Shown here: positions 2,531-18,025 of the stretch, one piece after another
Numbering within the stretch: the first letter of the stretch is position 1
Layout of the letters: each line of letters starts with the position of its first letter
Source: a virus
IMG/VR virus record: IMGVR_UViG_3300042330_000100
Location: 1 to 26,965 of that record
Length of the DNA: 26,965 bases
Strand: one strand, 5' to 3'
Notes under the pieces: model-generated
Told to the model about the DNA's origin: nothing
Database searches by the model: none
Seen by the model: only the letters and a program-made list of their open reading frames with translations
Translations under genes and position numbers: made by a program

Positions 2531-4651
2531 TTAGGCGGTGACCAGAACTTCGGCCTGGGTCGTGTCCGCGGCCGCGGCGCCGAACATGATGTCGTAGGAC
2601 GCCATGTGAGCGCGGGAAGCGCGGCTGTACCAGACGGAGAGCAGGCAGCTCAGGCCGTTGGCGGTGGTGACGGCGCGTTGCTCGAGGAACTCACCGGCGA
2701 TCATGCCGACCGGGAGGCCGGAGGCGATGGCGATGGCATCAGGGCCGCAGACGAAGCCAGCGGTGTTGGTCTCGGCAGAGGTCCAGCGGTTGTTCTCGGC
2801 GACCACGTCGAAGCCGAACCGGCCGTTCGCCAGCAGCTCTAGGCGGCTGTCAGGGAAGGTGCTTGTGGCAGCCGAGAATTGGAGGCGAGCGATGTGGCCA
2901 CCGTCCAGGATGAGGTTCTTGCTGCGGTAGTTCTTCGCCAAGGCGAGGATCGCAGGCAGATCCGAGGTGTCGAAGTTGGCCGCGGTGCCGATAGTAACTG
3001 CGGTGCCGTAGTTGCCCGAGACCATCAGGGCGGTCAGCACGTCGCTGATACCGTAGGCAAACAGGTCGGCAGAACCAGCAGCCAAGTCGGACAACATGAA
3101 GCCCTGGTTAAGCTCCTGCTGGGTGACCGTGAAGTTCTTCGAGATCTGGTTCACGGTGACCGCGGTGGCGGCCAGCGTCGAATCGTTGTTGGTTTCCCAG
3201 GACGTCGGGTTGGTCTGGGCAGCGGTGCCGGTGGTGTACTTCTTGACCTGCACGGACGCGCGGGGCCTGAGGTTGTCCAGGCCGACGTTGCGGCTGAAAG
3301 CGGAGACCAGGGCCAAACGAGTGGCGGCCACGGTGATCACTGCGTCGGCGAGATAATCGACAACCAAGCCCGAGGCGAACGTGTTGGCGTTCTGGGGGGC
3401 GTGGATGGCGCTCTGGCGCAACAGCTCGGAGTGGTTGGCCACCAGGAACTTGCGGCGGTCAGCACCGGCCTGAAAGCCTCGATGCTTCTCGAGCAGTGCA
3501 TTGCCGAGGTTCTCGATGCGAACCGGGGCGACGGGCTCCGGTGCAGGGGCGGCGGTGATGGTCTTGGCGCTGATGGCAGCGGCAACGGCCTTGGCGACGA
3601 TGGCGTCGATGTCGAGGGCGGTCGGCGCACTAGGAGCGGCCGCCACCACGGTGTTGGAATCAGTCATGTTGTGTGGTGTCTGCTGTGATGTCGGCGCGGT
3701 TGTCGCGCCATCGTCGGCAGCGTTAGTGCTGCCGGTCGAAAGTGTTTTGTCTGTGGTTTCGCCCTCCTCGACTTCGAGCTGGGCATAAAGCGCTTTGAAC
3801 CAGTCACGGCCGGCGGCACCTCCCCAGAGGTTGGCAGCCACGTCGGCAGGGGTGTTGGCTTCGGCCTCGAGGAAGCGCTCGTTGCGTCCCCACCAGGCGT
3901 TGGCTGTGCGGATCTTGTCCTCGGTGGGCGCCTCACCGGCCACCAGGGCCTCGGCGTCTAGGACGGTCTGCTTCTCGAGGCCATCACCGGCCAGGCCTTC
4001 GGCATACTGCTCGAGGCCTCGGCGAAGATTGCTTCGGACGGTCTCAGGGGCGGTCTTGGTCACAGCCCGAGGATGCCAGCAGGCGGCCATGGCGAGCTGC
4101 TCGGTGGTCTTGTCGGCCAGACCGAACTGGATGGCCTCCTGGGCGGTGAACCATGTTTCCGCGGTCATTGCCGCGCGGATCTGAGCTGAGGTCTTGCCGG
4201 TGCGCTTGGTGTAGATGCCGGCCAGGATCTCCGCGTGCTGGTCGAGGGCGTTGGCCATCTTCCGCATATCGTCTGAGGTGCCTGCCACCATTCCAGACGG
4301 GTCATGGATCATGAACAGCGAGGCCTCGGCCATCTCGATGCTGTCACCTGCAAGAGCTATGACGGAAGCAATCGAGGCAGCGATGCCGACCACCCGAGTG
4401 GTCACCGGCGCCTGCCGGCCTCGCAGCATATTGTAGATCGCCAGGCCGTCCCAGACGTTGCCACCTGGGCTGTTGATCTCGACCACCAAGGGGCCAGGGC
4501 CGACAGACTGGAGAGCGTCGGAAAATGCCTTGGCAGAAATTCCGGAGCCACCGAACCAGTCTTCACCGATCTGGTCGAAAATCTGGAGCACAGCCGGCTC
4601 ATGGATCGAGGCTCGGGGGCTGTAGGAAAGCCAGTTGGTTACTTTGGTCAT
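2531..4651 (-). CDS. ClpP/S14-type prohead protease fused to HK97-fold major capsid protein
   Basis: This 706-aa polyprotein has three regions. Residues about 20-185 are a ClpP-like serine protease: VVEINSPGGNVWDGLAIY, the nucleophile Ser93 in GIAASIAS, His116 in FMIHDPSG, and ETWFTAQEAIQFGLADK. Residues about 195-395 are a linker/scaffold-like part rich in Ala, Thr, Pro and acidic residues. Residues about 400-706 are the capsid domain (FASGLVVDYL, ISKNFTVTQQELNQG, NLILDGGHIARL, IASGLPVG, RAHMASYDIMFGA). In many phages the protease and capsid are separate genes; natural fusions are known. The protease would cut the scaffold and release mature capsid protein during prohead maturation. The position of the canonical ClpP Asp appears to be Thr166, as is common in phage relatives. 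The ATG overlaps the portal stop by four bases. An internal ATG (codon 329) could give a second product. Confidence 0.93.
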   Translation of the reverse strand: MTKVTNWLSYSPRASIHEPAVLQIFDQIGEDWFGGSGISAKAFSDALQSVGPGPLVVEINSPGGNVWDGLAIYNMLRGRQAPVTTRVVGIAASIASVIALAGDSIEMAEASLFMIHDPSGMVAGTSDDMRKMANALDQHAEILAGIYTKRTGKTSAQIRAAMTAETWFTAQEAIQFGLADKTTEQLAMAACWHPRAVTKTAPETVRSNLRRGLEQYAEGLAGDGLEKQTVLDAEALVAGEAPTEDKIRTANAWWGRNERFLEAEANTPADVAANLWGGAAGRDWFKALYAQLEVEEGETTDKTLSTGSTNAADDGATTAPTSQQTPHNMTDSNTVVAAAPSAPTALDIDAIVAKAVAAAISAKTITAAPAPEPVAPVRIENLGNALLEKHRGFQAGADRRKFLVANHSELLRQSAIHAPQNANTFASGLVVDYLADAVITVAATRLALVSAFSRNVGLDNLRPRASVQVKKYTTGTAAQTNPTSWETNNDSTLAATAVTVNQISKNFTVTQQELNQGFMLSDLAAGSADLFAYGISDVLTALMVSGNYGTAVTIGTAANFDTSDLPAILALAKNYRSKNLILDGGHIARLQFSAATSTFPDSRLELLANGRFGFDVVAENNRWTSAETNTAGFVCGPDAIAIASGLPVGMIAGEFLEQRAVTTANGLSCLLSVWYSRASRAHMASYDIMFGAAAADTTQAEVLVTA
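3665..3690 (-). promoter_or_regulatory. Possible internal translation start for a separate capsid protein
   Basis: Within the protease-capsid fusion, codon 329 is ATG (3667-3665), followed by TDSNTVVAAAPSAP. It is preceded by CAGCAGACACCACACAAC, an A/C-rich stretch like the leaders of the free-standing genes at 13893, 16808 and 17649 (for example ACAGCAACAACATG). It falls in a low-complexity linker between protease and scaffold/capsid. An internal start here would yield a 378-aa scaffold-capsid protein without the protease, comparable in logic to the nested starts of lambda C/Nu3. This is inferred from sequence context only. Confidence 0.4.
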
Positions 4652-9415: not shown

Positions 9416-9787
9416 TTACATATTTGCCGGTTTAACAGAGGTCTCTATTGTACTATGCTCTATCCTTTGCTGCCTTAAATACATCTCATGCCCTTTCGCA
9501 ATGATGTAAGCCACTGAACCACGGGCAACACCGCACGCCTTGGCCACATCGTCGAGGCTTAGGTCACGCTCCCGTAGGTCGTAGGCCTTGCGACACACGT
9601 CGGCATCCTGGGCGGTGGCAGTGATCTCGTAGTCCTCCTCCTCCTCGAGCGCCACGATGGGCGTGCCTAGGGCACTGAGCTTGACGCTGCGAGGGTAGGA
9701 CATCCATCCACGCTTGATTGCCAGGGCAACCAGGTTGGGGGCTTCGTGTAGGAGTTTAACTCGGTCGAGGTCGTAGGGTATTTTCAT
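9416..9787 (-). CDS. Helix-turn-helix protein (123 aa), putative regulator
   Basis: I use the ATG at 9787, two bases after the helicase stop; a longer frame to 9859 would overlap the helicase gene and uses a poor start. The product begins MKIPYDLDRVKLLHEAPNLV and has a clear HTH at residues ~76-100 (LSLDDVAKACGVARGSVAYIIAKGHEMYL). This resembles the recognition helices of Hin/resolvase-like or MarR-like regulators. An acidic stretch (VALEEEEDYE) precedes it. It closes the replication operon and is followed by an 83-base spacer before the late genes, a sensible place for an early-to-late switch protein. Its target is unknown; the dyad near 18.06 kb is one candidate. Confidence 0.7.
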   Translation of the reverse strand: MKIPYDLDRVKLLHEAPNLVALAIKRGWMSYPRSVKLSALGTPIVALEEEEDYEITATAQDADVCRKAYDLRERDLSLDDVAKACGVARGSVAYIIAKGHEMYLRQQRIEHSTIETSVKPANM

Positions 9788-11992: not shown

Positions 11993-12655
11993 TCAGTAGG
12001 CCGGCATCAGTATGTCGGCCACCGCCTGTGTTAGCTTCACGTCCTGGAGGCAGTAGTTGATGGCCGCCTGTCGGTCGGTGTTCCACAGCAGGCTGAAGTC
12101 GGCACCGTTGCCTGACTTCTCACCGAGTCCCAGGTGGCGACTGATGGAGGCGAGGCTTCCATGGGCCCGGTTGTCCCCGAGCTGCCACACCTCCCGGAGG
12201 TCGACCACTAGCTCGGACCAGTAGCGGCCGTTCCGCAACCAGTAGGGCGGCATGATCTTGTGGCGCCAGGAGCGTTTGATCAGGAAGGGCAGGTCGAAGG
12301 CCTTGATGTTGAAGCCAATGAGCTGTGGCTGTCGCTCGTAGTAGTTGAGCAGCGCCCACCATTGTCGCAGCAGGTGGGCCTCACCATCGGCATCGGCGCA
12401 GAGGATGTTCTGCTCCTGGTGATCGACCCGGTAGCCGATGCAGAGCACCTGGCCCGATAAGGCATCCAGGGCGGCATTGCGGATGTAGTCGGCCGTGTGG
12501 CTCTCCTCGGCCTTCTGGAGCTTTTCTGCGATTAGGTCAGGGTTCTTGATGTTGCCGAGCTTTACGTCGGCCGGGTTGAAGGCTGGAATGTTGAGCTGCT
12601 CAAGCGGTAGAGGCCCGGTCTCAATGTCGAAATAGATGTTAGGGTTGGCTGGCAT
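11993..12655 (-). CDS. 3'-5' exonuclease, DnaQ/PolB-exo type
   Basis: The 220-aa protein carries the DEDD exonuclease motifs: Exo I YFDIET (Asp10, Glu12), Exo II GFNIKAFDLPFL (Asp121) and Exo III YCLQDVKLT (Asp205, Tyr201). It resembles the stand-alone PolB-like 3'-5' exonuclease family found in phages and bacteria. The domain fills the protein, with no polymerase domain attached. It may proofread for, or act with, a host polymerase, or trim recombination ends with the SSB-like and RuvC-like proteins upstream. The start ATG follows an A/C-rich leader. A 94-base spacer precedes it and contains a GC hairpin also seen near 17.69 kb. Confidence 0.88.
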   Translation of the reverse strand: MPANPNIYFDIETGPLPLEQLNIPAFNPADVKLGNIKNPDLIAEKLQKAEESHTADYIRNAALDALSGQVLCIGYRVDHQEQNILCADADGEAHLLRQWWALLNYYERQPQLIGFNIKAFDLPFLIKRSWRHKIMPPYWLRNGRYWSELVVDLREVWQLGDNRAHGSLASISRHLGLGEKSGNGADFSLLWNTDRQAAINYCLQDVKLTQAVADILMPAY

Positions 12656-12749: not shown

Positions 12750-13145
12750 TCAGATCTTTTTGCCGCAATGTGGGCAAACGAGGAAGTTGATCGGCTCCCG
12801 GGTGGTTGGCACTTCGAGCCATTCGCAGATCTCGAAATAGCTTACCCAACCGAATCCGCGGACAGCTCCTGGTCGAAGGTGGCCGGTGTTGTATAGCTGC
12901 AAGGCCTCGTCGCGGCTCTTGACGCACAGCCTTTCGAGGGTGTTGAACGTCCTAACCGTGAACGGGAATCCCCATTGTCGCAGGATCTCCTCGTGTATCT
13001 CGGCCGACTGCTCGATCTGTTTGATGCGCTGGCGAGAAAGGTTAAAATGTTTTCCGATCTCCTCGAGCGTCTTGCCTTCGGAGCGCATCCGAACCACCTC
13101 GGGAACTTTGTCGACCAGTTTGACGTAGGGCTTTCGGGTTTTCAT
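12750..13145 (-). CDS. Sigma-region-4 plus alpha-CTD-like DNA-binding protein
   Basis: The start is ATG 13145 (MKTRKPYVKLVDKV), 1 base after the SSB-like gene stop; a longer frame to 13220 would overlap it. The 131 aa show three parts. Residues ~26-46 (TLEEIGKHFNLSRQRIKQIEQ) match the -35-binding helix-turn-helix of sigma factor region 4. Residues ~61-112 (FTVRTFNTLERLCVKSRDEALQLYNTGHL ... GFGWVSYFEICEWL) match the helix-hairpin-helix pattern of the RNA polymerase alpha C-terminal domain. The end (CPHCGKKI) is a single CxxC knuckle. Both modules bind DNA at promoters, so a transcription modulator of host RNA polymerase is likely. Which promoters it acts on is unknown. Pattern matching is by eye; structure prediction would settle the alpha-CTD part. 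Confidence 0.75.
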   Translation of the reverse strand: MKTRKPYVKLVDKVPEVVRMRSEGKTLEEIGKHFNLSRQRIKQIEQSAEIHEEILRQWGFPFTVRTFNTLERLCVKSRDEALQLYNTGHLRPGAVRGFGWVSYFEICEWLEVPTTREPINFLVCPHCGKKI

Positions 13146-13146
13146 T

Positions 13147-13893
13147 TTAGAATGGAATGTCTGAATCGGCAGGATCTTCCTTGGCGTTGATCTCATCGAT
13201 GCGCTTGGTAATGGCAGCAATGAGCTGCCTGTCCTCGTCGGTCTTGCCCGGGCTAATCTTAGCCTTAGGCAGCCAGCGCTCGGCTAGGCCTTGGACGGCG
13301 TCGTCGGTCAGCTCCGAGATGGCCACGCCCTTGAACTTGCCGACGTGCACCTGGGTGGTTGAGAGATCTGGTGAGCGTTTGGTTGAACCGTCAGGAGTGA
13401 CCGTCTTCACCTGGTCGTCATCCTTGGGCGGCCTGTCCTCCATGCGGATCCACAGGCCCGACGGCTTGAGCGGCTCGCCGTTCTTGTGAGCCATGATCAA
13501 CTTGATGTTCGAGAACGTCTTGGTGCCGTCCTGACTCTGCTCATGGACGATCACCACGGTGGCTGGTCGGCCGATGAGGCTGTCCAGGTCGAGGCTGGTG
13601 GTCTCCTCGGCGGTAAGGGCCCGACCGTGCCAATCTCGGAGGAACTTGGTCAGGCCGGCCTTCTCATGCAGGCTGGCGGTCATCGGCGCCGTCATGACCA
13701 CCCAGGGCTGCACCGGGTTGCGGGTCTTGTCCAGGAGATCGATCTCGAACGCGATCTTGAACTTCTGCTTGGTGCCGTACTCGGTCTCGTAGGACCGTAA
13801 CGGTGTGATGTCGACGCACACCGCGCGGCCGGTGTACTCGGGGCACGGCGTGAAGGTGCCGCCTGTTTGTTTCGTTGATACTGTGATTCCCAT
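13147..13893 (-). CDS. Single-stranded DNA-binding-like protein with DIPF tip
   Basis: The 248-aa protein begins with a beta-rich region (FTPCPEYTGRAVCVDITPLRSYETEYG ... KFKIAFEIDLLD, residues ~13-135), which fits an OB fold of phage replication proteins. A polar linker (~150-183) follows. Next comes HVGKFKGVAISELTDDAVQGLAERWLP (~183-209), a motif seen at the C-terminus of some exonuclease-type proteins. The end is acidic, DPADSDIPF, matching the interaction tip of bacterial SSB (DDDIPF). The tip recruits replication and recombination partners. It lies in the DNA metabolism operon beside exonuclease and resolvase genes. The ATG is preceded by a long CAACAACAC-type leader with no Shine-Dalgarno. 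Likely the phage SSB; the extra GKFKG module is unusual. Confidence 0.8.
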   Translation of the reverse strand: MGITVSTKQTGGTFTPCPEYTGRAVCVDITPLRSYETEYGTKQKFKIAFEIDLLDKTRNPVQPWVVMTAPMTASLHEKAGLTKFLRDWHGRALTAEETTSLDLDSLIGRPATVVIVHEQSQDGTKTFSNIKLIMAHKNGEPLKPSGLWIRMEDRPPKDDDQVKTVTPDGSTKRSPDLSTTQVHVGKFKGVAISELTDDAVQGLAERWLPKAKISPGKTDEDRQLIAAITKRIDEINAKEDPADSDIPF

Positions 13894-16047: not shown

Positions 16048-16123
16048 AAAGCGTTGTTGCCTTACCAAGCCGCGCCGAGCCCGGCCATGCCGCGCCTGGC
16101 CGCGCCCCGCCCTGAAAAATTGT

Positions 16124-16141
16124 CCCGGATACCGCGCCGGG
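16124..16141 (-). ncRNA. Hairpin 1 of spacer A (8-nt loop)
   Basis: CCCGG / CCGGG stem around loop CGCGGTAT on the minus strand. Same place and loop type as the hairpin at 16952-16969, whose stem is CCTGG / CCAGG with loop TACGGCAA. Stem bases differ but pair in both. ACAATTTTTCAG follows in both. Confidence 0.65.
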
Positions 16142-16232
16142 TCGCGTGTTGCCTTACCAAGCCGATCCAGGCCATGCCGAGCCGAGCCCTGCCCTGCCGT
16201 GCCGAGCCGAGCCCTGCCGAGCCTTGAGAAAA

Positions 16233-16808
16233 TCAAACCATCTCGACAGTGAACCTGCCGAACTTCGGTCGCCAGTCGCCCAGGCCGACCAATCCTCCAG
16301 CCTCGCGTGAGGCGTCGATCACTTGCTCCTTTGAGACAACCGATTCGTCAAACTCAATGGTGCAGGTCGCCCACCAACCGGAAGGAACCATGGGCCGGAC
16401 TCGAATGATTCCGAGGTCGACCCGCTTTCGCAGTGTGAATGCCGGGTCGGAGTAAATCTGCTCCTTGGTCTGGCCCATCTTGCGATGGTGAATGACCACC
16501 TCTGCCTCAGATAGCAGCACCGCGGCGTCGAACTTTTTGCCGAGTCGCGCCTTCTTAGCGCCGTCCTTGAGGCACTTCTCGATGTTGTCGCACGGAAGGA
16601 CCATGCCGTTCTCGATGTCTGACCAGTAAAGGCCGGCCTCCCATTCGAGGCGGTCGCGTTCGTCATGATCGCTTGGTGTCATGTTTTTGCTGCCCTTGAC
16701 GGTGATCCGTTTGATCGCCACGACATAAGGGTTTTTGTGATCCACCATGTCGCCGTTGTGCATGATGAGGGGCCGCAGCCCGGTGAGTTTGACTTTGATC
16801 TGCTTCAT
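16233..16808 (-). CDS. Conserved phage protein with RAMP/Cas7-like features (191 aa)
   Basis: It starts MKQIKVKLTGLRPLIMHNGDMVD, with strands followed by NPYVVAIKRI and a helix (DHDERDRLEWEAGLYW). It also has VLPCDNIEKCLKDGAKKARLGKK and the C-terminal Gly-rich segment GGLVGLGDWRPKFGRFTVE (~171-189). The 'LMHN...NP...' start and 'GLGDWRPxFGRF' end define a phage family that I know only as hypothetical. The strand-helix order and Gly-rich loop recall the RRM-fold RAMP/Cas7 proteins, which bind RNA. That resemblance is inference by eye. The gene lies between two structured GGCNN spacers (A and B), with its stop and start attached to them, so an RNA- or DNA-binding partner of these elements is a good hypothesis. 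Confidence 0.72.
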   Translation of the reverse strand: MKQIKVKLTGLRPLIMHNGDMVDHKNPYVVAIKRITVKGSKNMTPSDHDERDRLEWEAGLYWSDIENGMVLPCDNIEKCLKDGAKKARLGKKFDAAVLLSEAEVVIHHRKMGQTKEQIYSDPAFTLRKRVDLGIIRVRPMVPSGWWATCTIEFDESVVSKEQVIDASREAGGLVGLGDWRPKFGRFTVEMV

Positions 16809-16851
16809 GTTGTTTTGCTTTGGTTGCCTTGTTGTTGTTTACCGAAAGTGT

Positions 16852-16871: not shown

Positions 16872-16951
16872 CAGGCGTTTTGCCTAGCCGCGCCGCGCCC
16901 GGCTATGCCCCGCCGCGCCTTGCCGCGCCTTGCCTAACCCTGAAAAATTGT

Positions 16952-16969
16952 CCTGGTTGCCGTACCAGG
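16952..16969 (-). ncRNA. Hairpin 1 of spacer B (8-nt loop)
   Basis: CCTGG / CCAGG stem around loop TACGGCAA on the minus strand, followed by ACAATTTTTCAG. Counterpart of 16124-16141; paired bases change together. Confidence 0.65.
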
Positions 16970-17059
16970 TGACGTATTGCCTCGCCCCTCCACGCCTTGC
17001 CCAGCCGGGCCGGGCACTGCCACGCCGTGCCGCGCCTAGCCAAGCCAAGCCTCGGAAAA

Positions 17060-17745: not shown

Positions 17746-17979
17746 TTAGTTCCAATCGGGATGGTTGCTGGTAACAAGAGCCACCCGATCCCATCCGCGG
17801 CAGAGTGCAATGTGACCGCCACCAATGTGAACGTAAGCCGAGTTAACTGCATTTCGCAGAATCTGAGCGGCTTGTTGGCGAGTCAATTCGCCAAGGTCTG
17901 CACCAGTTTTTAAAAGAACGATTGCAGTGCGCTCTTCTGTGGTGGGGGTGTTTTCGTATCGGACGGTGATCTTGCTCAT
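17746..17979 (-). CDS. Hypothetical 77-aa protein, first gene after the early promoter
   Basis: The protein begins MSKITVRYENTPTTEERTAIVLLKTGADLGELTRQQAAQILRNAVNSAYVHIGGG and ends with a mixed beta segment. A helix-rich middle (LTRQQAAQILRNAV) follows a strand pair. I do not recognise a family. It is the first gene downstream of the putative early promoter and dyad near 18.05-18.11 kb, so it would be expressed earliest. First-position early genes in phages often interfere with host functions; that is only a hint here. Confidence 0.72.
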   Translation of the reverse strand: MSKITVRYENTPTTEERTAIVLLKTGADLGELTRQQAAQILRNAVNSAYVHIGGGHIALCRGWDRVALVTSNHPDWN

Positions 17980-18025
17980 GTTTTGCTTTGGTTTGCTGTT
18001 TTTGTTGCCTTCGACGTGATCAAGA

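Follow-up and report, generated by a model that had tools for sequence, protein, structure and literature searches.

A small phage protein predicted to join a sigma region 4-type helix-turn-helix to an RNA polymerase alpha-CTD-like domain

To reprogram host RNA polymerase, phages usually bind it or replace its sigma factor. One gene in an uncultured phage genome (positions 12750..13145, minus strand) raises the question of whether a single small protein carries both DNA-reading ends of the holoenzyme, and to what use. A fusion of those two ends would be a compact tool with which to compete at promoters or to add contacts to them. The predicted product (P0001) has three parts: a helix-turn-helix of the sigma-70 region 4 type, an alpha-CTD-like domain, and a candidate zinc knuckle at the end. 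The initial annotation had placed both modules in one phage protein of 131 residues, and this holds: the open reading frame is real, and its homologues share the architecture.

The window, meaning the whole 26,965-base record that was analysed, comes from a tailed-phage genome, with genes for terminase, portal, a protease-capsid fusion, DnaB, and exonuclease. Every gene identified lies on the minus strand. Annotated phage records contain no close relative of the window, and Rfam and tRNA searches of it returned no matches. In the product of the protease-capsid gene, 706 residues long (2531-4651, minus strand), the presumed major capsid protein is joined to a head maturation protease; PHROG protease matches fall on the amino-terminal half. 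The window also encodes a second helix-turn-helix protein (9416-9787).

The reading frame of the fusion protein starts with ATG at 13145 and stops at 12752-12750. The preceding gene stops (at 13147) 2 bases before this ATG, so translation of the two is probably coupled. IMG/VR contigs, together with one contig from a Verrucomicrobiota metagenome-assembled genome (MAG), yielded 122 distinct full-length homologues, with identity down to 46% (L301) and one three-part architecture throughout. Values of dN/dS between homologues are about 0.06-0.20, and the gene is under purifying selection.

The amino-terminal module was recognized by the initial annotation as a sigma-4-type helix-turn-helix, and Pfam bears this out: Sigma70_r4 (PF04545) matches residues 16-48 (13002..13100, minus strand) with E 5.3e-8 and 32.7 bits, above the curated cut-off of 24.1 bits. 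Alignment by hhalign to six sigma factors covers residues 21-50 at E 4.6e-13, and the AF2 model places helices at residues 10-22, 27-34, and 38-58. The recognition helix, LSRQRIKQIE, has the form LSRQRIxQIE that likens this module to sigma-70 region 4. In an alignment of diverse family members, each of the 27 matches Sigma70_r4 at least weakly, and PDB sequence matches of the family are mostly sigma region 4 structures. Other candidates were rejected. Pfam matches to Death, HTH_7, and HTH_28 fall under cut-off, and PDB sequence matches to pentatricopeptide proteins (E down to 2e-10) are sums over ten near-identical designed repeats, each at E of at least 5, that vanish when the family profile is used.

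Sigma70 residues R584 and E585 contact positions -32/-33 of the promoter (PMC5101437), and align with residues 38 and 39 of the fusion protein. Position 38 is R or K among the 122 homologues, whereas the E585 position is Gln in every one of them (Q39); R40 and Q43 do not vary either. Unlike sigma factors, the fusion protein has no basic tail (ALRKLRHP) after the recognition helix, and a long helix running into the next domain takes its place. Regions 1-3 also are absent: the sigma models of Pfam and NCBIfam match region 4 only, at approximately residues 15-48. The protein therefore cannot initiate as a sigma factor by itself, and the idea that it is a sigma factor proper is ruled out by the lack of region 2 or 3.

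Residues 61-112 (12810..12965, minus strand) form a diverged RNA polymerase alpha-CTD-like domain, as judged from profile alignment with controls, bridging proteins, and structure prediction. The initial annotation proposed searches with two Pfam models; Sigma70_r4 is over its cut-off, but RNA_pol_A_CTD (PF03118) is below detection with the single sequence and is absent from its listed Pfam matches. This model matches 15 of the 27 family members weakly (best E 0.019). It is the only HhH-type model among the 25 Pfam families listed for the family, none of which is an HHH family. The family profile, by comparison with eight genuine RpoA CTDs, aligns over residues 61-111 with a probability of 95% and E 2.8e-8. 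The hhalign score of 45.7 stands against at most 23.9 for 200 column-shuffled alpha-CTD profiles, 12.4 for a reversed profile, and at most 15.7 for 200 column-shuffled family profiles. The proposed alpha-CTD-like module thus stands, well clear of its shuffled controls.

Structure prediction agrees. The helix order expected of alpha CTD is seen in AF2 models both of the full-length protein (pLDDT 82) and of the isolated C-domain (pLDDT 86). The C-domain was modelled alone because a Foldseek search with the whole two-domain model gave nothing significant, helix-turn-helix proteins dominating the matches. With the isolated domain, the best of only four PDB matches is 8igr_G (293 residues), from a CII-dependent transcription activation complex; we take chain G to be the RNA polymerase alpha subunit. 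At TM-score 0.48, rmsd 2.7 Å, and E 4.7 this match is not significant, and it lends support by rank only. Together, the helix pattern and this top rank favor the structural likeness to alpha CTD that had been supposed.

Stand-alone phage proteins provide a bridge between the family and PF03118. Two of them, in L374 (12679-13017; 112 residues) and L312 (2982-3419, minus strand; 145 residues), are encoded at a variable locus flanked by the SLT lysozyme and RuvC-like genes in related phages. Their PF03118 scores are 23.8 and 24.7 bits, respectively, with the cut-off at 23.8; the L374 protein aligns with the fusion family at E 1e-7 and 34% identity. Microbacterium phage Mazun gp26 and Ruegeria phage vB_RpoS-V16 gp23 likewise reach or pass PF03118, and the Pfam sigma-4 helix-turn-helix is absent from all four proteins scanned. 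Erythrobacter phage vB_EliS-L02 ORF40 is annotated with an alpha-CTD-like domain (PMC9127768). Fusion and stand-alone proteins occur together in L375, L377, and L378.

Resemblance to alpha CTD extends from helix order to individual positions. Alpha residues R265, N268, N294, and K298 are reported DNA contacts (PMC7822876, PMC5101437, PMC11434276). Residues R65, N68, G99, S102, and E105 of the fusion protein align with alpha R265, N268, G296, S299, and E302, respectively; R65, G99, and E105 are each present in 122 of 122 distinct homologues, S102 in 120, and N68 in 104. The minor-groove residue N294 is replaced by G97 (G in 104/122), and the equivalent of K298, position 101, is divided equally between K/R (61/122) and V/I (61/122). 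Within this alignment, the R265-type minor-groove arginine is retained without exception, and the other alpha contact positions have partly drifted. Further differences from alpha CTD are a WGFPF motif that precedes the first helix, a short GHLxPG insertion before the hairpin, a last helix that reads EICEWL, and the appended zinc knuckle. The alpha-NTD (the RpoA assembly domain) is absent, and the amino terminus is the helix-turn-helix instead.

The CPHC knuckle of the initial annotation is present (C124-P-H-C127; 12765..12776, minus strand), but it provides only half a zinc site. Its Cys pair is invariant, whereas H126 varies (N in four homologues). The protein has a single CxxC, and H89 and C107 are the remaining invariant residues that could serve as ligands; H89, C107, C124, and C127 are each found in 122 of 122 homologues. 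These four residues are a plausible candidate zinc site, and it is reasonable to suppose a single H-C-C-C site that would tie the tail to the alpha-CTD-like domain.

How novel is this arrangement? Separate sigma4 and alpha-CTD modules are already known, as are large Firmicutes proteins with both in one polypeptide (L085, 4957-7776; L102, 1291-3171; L105, 1135-3135). The L102 and L105 proteins are over both Pfam cut-offs, and that of L085 has two alpha-CTD repeats. Unlike the phage protein, these are cellular and longer than 600 residues, with the alpha CTD located amino-terminal of the helix-turn-helix and not adjacent to it. Minimal sigma and gp33-type factors of T4-like and jumbo phages have, as does the fusion protein, a single sigma4-type helix-turn-helix, which is proposed to bring in host RNA polymerase (PMC7824862); the minimal sigma factors with one such module occur in jumbo phages. 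They differ in having no reported alpha-CTD module, and their phages are large, with other transcription partners. Literature searches found no description of a phage sigma4-alpha-CTD fusion, and tblastn matches in annotated phage records span the helix-turn-helix part only, none covering the whole fusion. Among the named families of the libraries searched, none matches the small zinc-knuckled fusion.

The gene resides in a replication module. Upstream (13147..13893, minus strand) is an NGO0469-family phage replication protein (NCBIfam NF046043, E 4e-26, over cut-off), whose carboxyl-terminal DSDIPF is like the SSB tip. Downstream (11993..12655, minus strand) is a PolB-like 3'-5' exonuclease (Pfam DNA_pol_B_exo2, E 1.4e-11), after which come O-like and DnaB genes. 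The order NGO0469-family gene, fusion gene, exonuclease gene recurs in nearly all lineages compared. Among 27 contigs with both neighbours, chosen by a conserved upstream DNA element alone, 25 keep the fusion gene. It is lost from L285/L371 and from L346, which keep both neighbours approximately 90 bp apart (L371 5000-5100, contig G034; L346 4707-4796), so the gene is dispensable, although widely retained. Verrucomicrobiota is a candidate host phylum for this phage group because the MAG contig (L079), assigned to that phylum, carries a homologue with 51% identity.

What does the protein do? We favor, with a probability of about 0.6, a phage-encoded double-headed regulator that binds promoter DNA and likely tunes host RNA polymerase. 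The sigma region 4.2-type helix-turn-helix would recognize, through the major groove, a sequence like a -35 box; one continuous helix would tether to it the alpha-CTD-like domain, which would contact the adjacent minor groove through its R265-type arginine. Zinc held by H89, C107, C124, and C127 probably would pin the carboxyl-terminal tail to the domain. Made from the replication operon, the protein most likely would act at phage promoters, host promoters, or both, either as a co-activator or as a competitor for -35 and upstream DNA. The proposal builds on the module identities, the conserved DNA-contact positions, the fixed architecture, and the conserved gene position; DNA binding, zinc binding, and the effect on transcription, including its sign, we infer. 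Several observations count against it: N294 is replaced, K298 is V/I in half of the family, and the sigma basic tail is absent; the gene lies inside a replication module and is missing from two phages; and no Foldseek E-value reaches significance. The clean loss in these two phages counts in particular against a promoter role that is generic and essential. Redirection of host polymerase or blocking of -35/UP recognition, both raised by the initial annotation, are plausible as putative mechanisms. Such a protein would be a natural probe of cooperation between sigma4 and alpha CTD, and it offers an entry point to how transcription is controlled in a phage group that is widespread and uncultured.

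The near-constant position of the gene leaves room for a possible role in replication. Promoter-type modules might have been re-used in a DNA-binding accessory for origin binding, primosome loading, or recombination loading, with the neighbouring replication protein, exonuclease, O-like, and DnaB genes and the near-overlap that suggests coupled translation all in accord. This seems unlikely: characterised relatives of both modules serve transcription initiation, regulators often are mixed with replication genes in phage operons, and the two phages that lack the gene retain both neighbours. An ordinary local repressor or autoregulator, in which the alpha-CTD-like part is a generic HhH clamp and the link to polymerase ancestral only, likewise strikes us as improbable. 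Several generic helix-turn-helix families do match the N-domain weakly, and L301, the most divergent homologue, is a better match to HTH_23 than to Sigma70_r4 (15.5 bits, under cut-off). However, RNA_pol_A_CTD as the only Pfam HhH model listed for the family argues against a generic clamp, as does retention of several alpha DNA-contact residues.

A special case of the promoter-regulator proposal is host takeover, in which the protein shuts down host transcription by occupying host -35/UP sequences or the partner surfaces of sigma4 and alpha CTD. Imitation of two neighbouring holoenzyme parts that bind promoters would suit this role, as would dispensability of the gene in some phages. Precedents exist among small phage proteins directed at the host sigma factor or polymerase, including AsiA, which appropriates sigma (PMC6755090), and P7 of Xp10 (PMC3985653). 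Nevertheless, conservation at the DNA-contact positions suggests that the protein has DNA, not polymerase, as its partner, and host shut-off is a possible but rather doubtful outcome.

Within the promoter-regulator proposal, the most attractive putative target for the sigma4-type helix-turn-helix is a very conserved promoter- or operator-like element upstream of early genes (18120-18048, minus strand). Its layout is TGACCcCTGTTTGACCC-N4-AAACATTGGGTTTTcT-N3-AAATCTACAG-N15-CTGTAGAC, with two TTGAC-like boxes 11 bp apart. There are 103 distinct versions (at L004 672-817 and at homologous positions of more than 100 contigs), present across lineages that encode the fusion, and the flank upstream of the element is unrelated between lineages. 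The element persists in both phages without the fusion gene (L285/L371 and L346), which weakens the notion that the promoter-like element requires the fusion protein. By this comparison, the element does not depend on the fusion protein alone, nor is the protein essential for it. The boldest form of the proposal, a self-contained sigma4-alpha-CTD copy that reads -35 box and minor groove in trans at this element and so switches host polymerase to the phage genome, is very doubtful; a literature search found no description of such an in-trans takeover.

The intergenic DNA of this part of the window has other features. Leaders such as AAAGCAAAACAACATG (for example at 16805-16840 and 17975-18000, minus strand) are without an obvious Shine-Dalgarno sequence. 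A GGCNN repeat of period 5 forms two arrays between genes (minus strand, 16055-16218 and 16873-17046), and only some of the relatives have them (L004, L012, L018, L024, L147, and L209). The arrays flank a GGGACAATTTTTC / AGGACAATTTTTC motif and are followed by the hairpin CCGGTGNGCGGTANCACCGG, present in two copies in the window versus 0.05 expected by chance.
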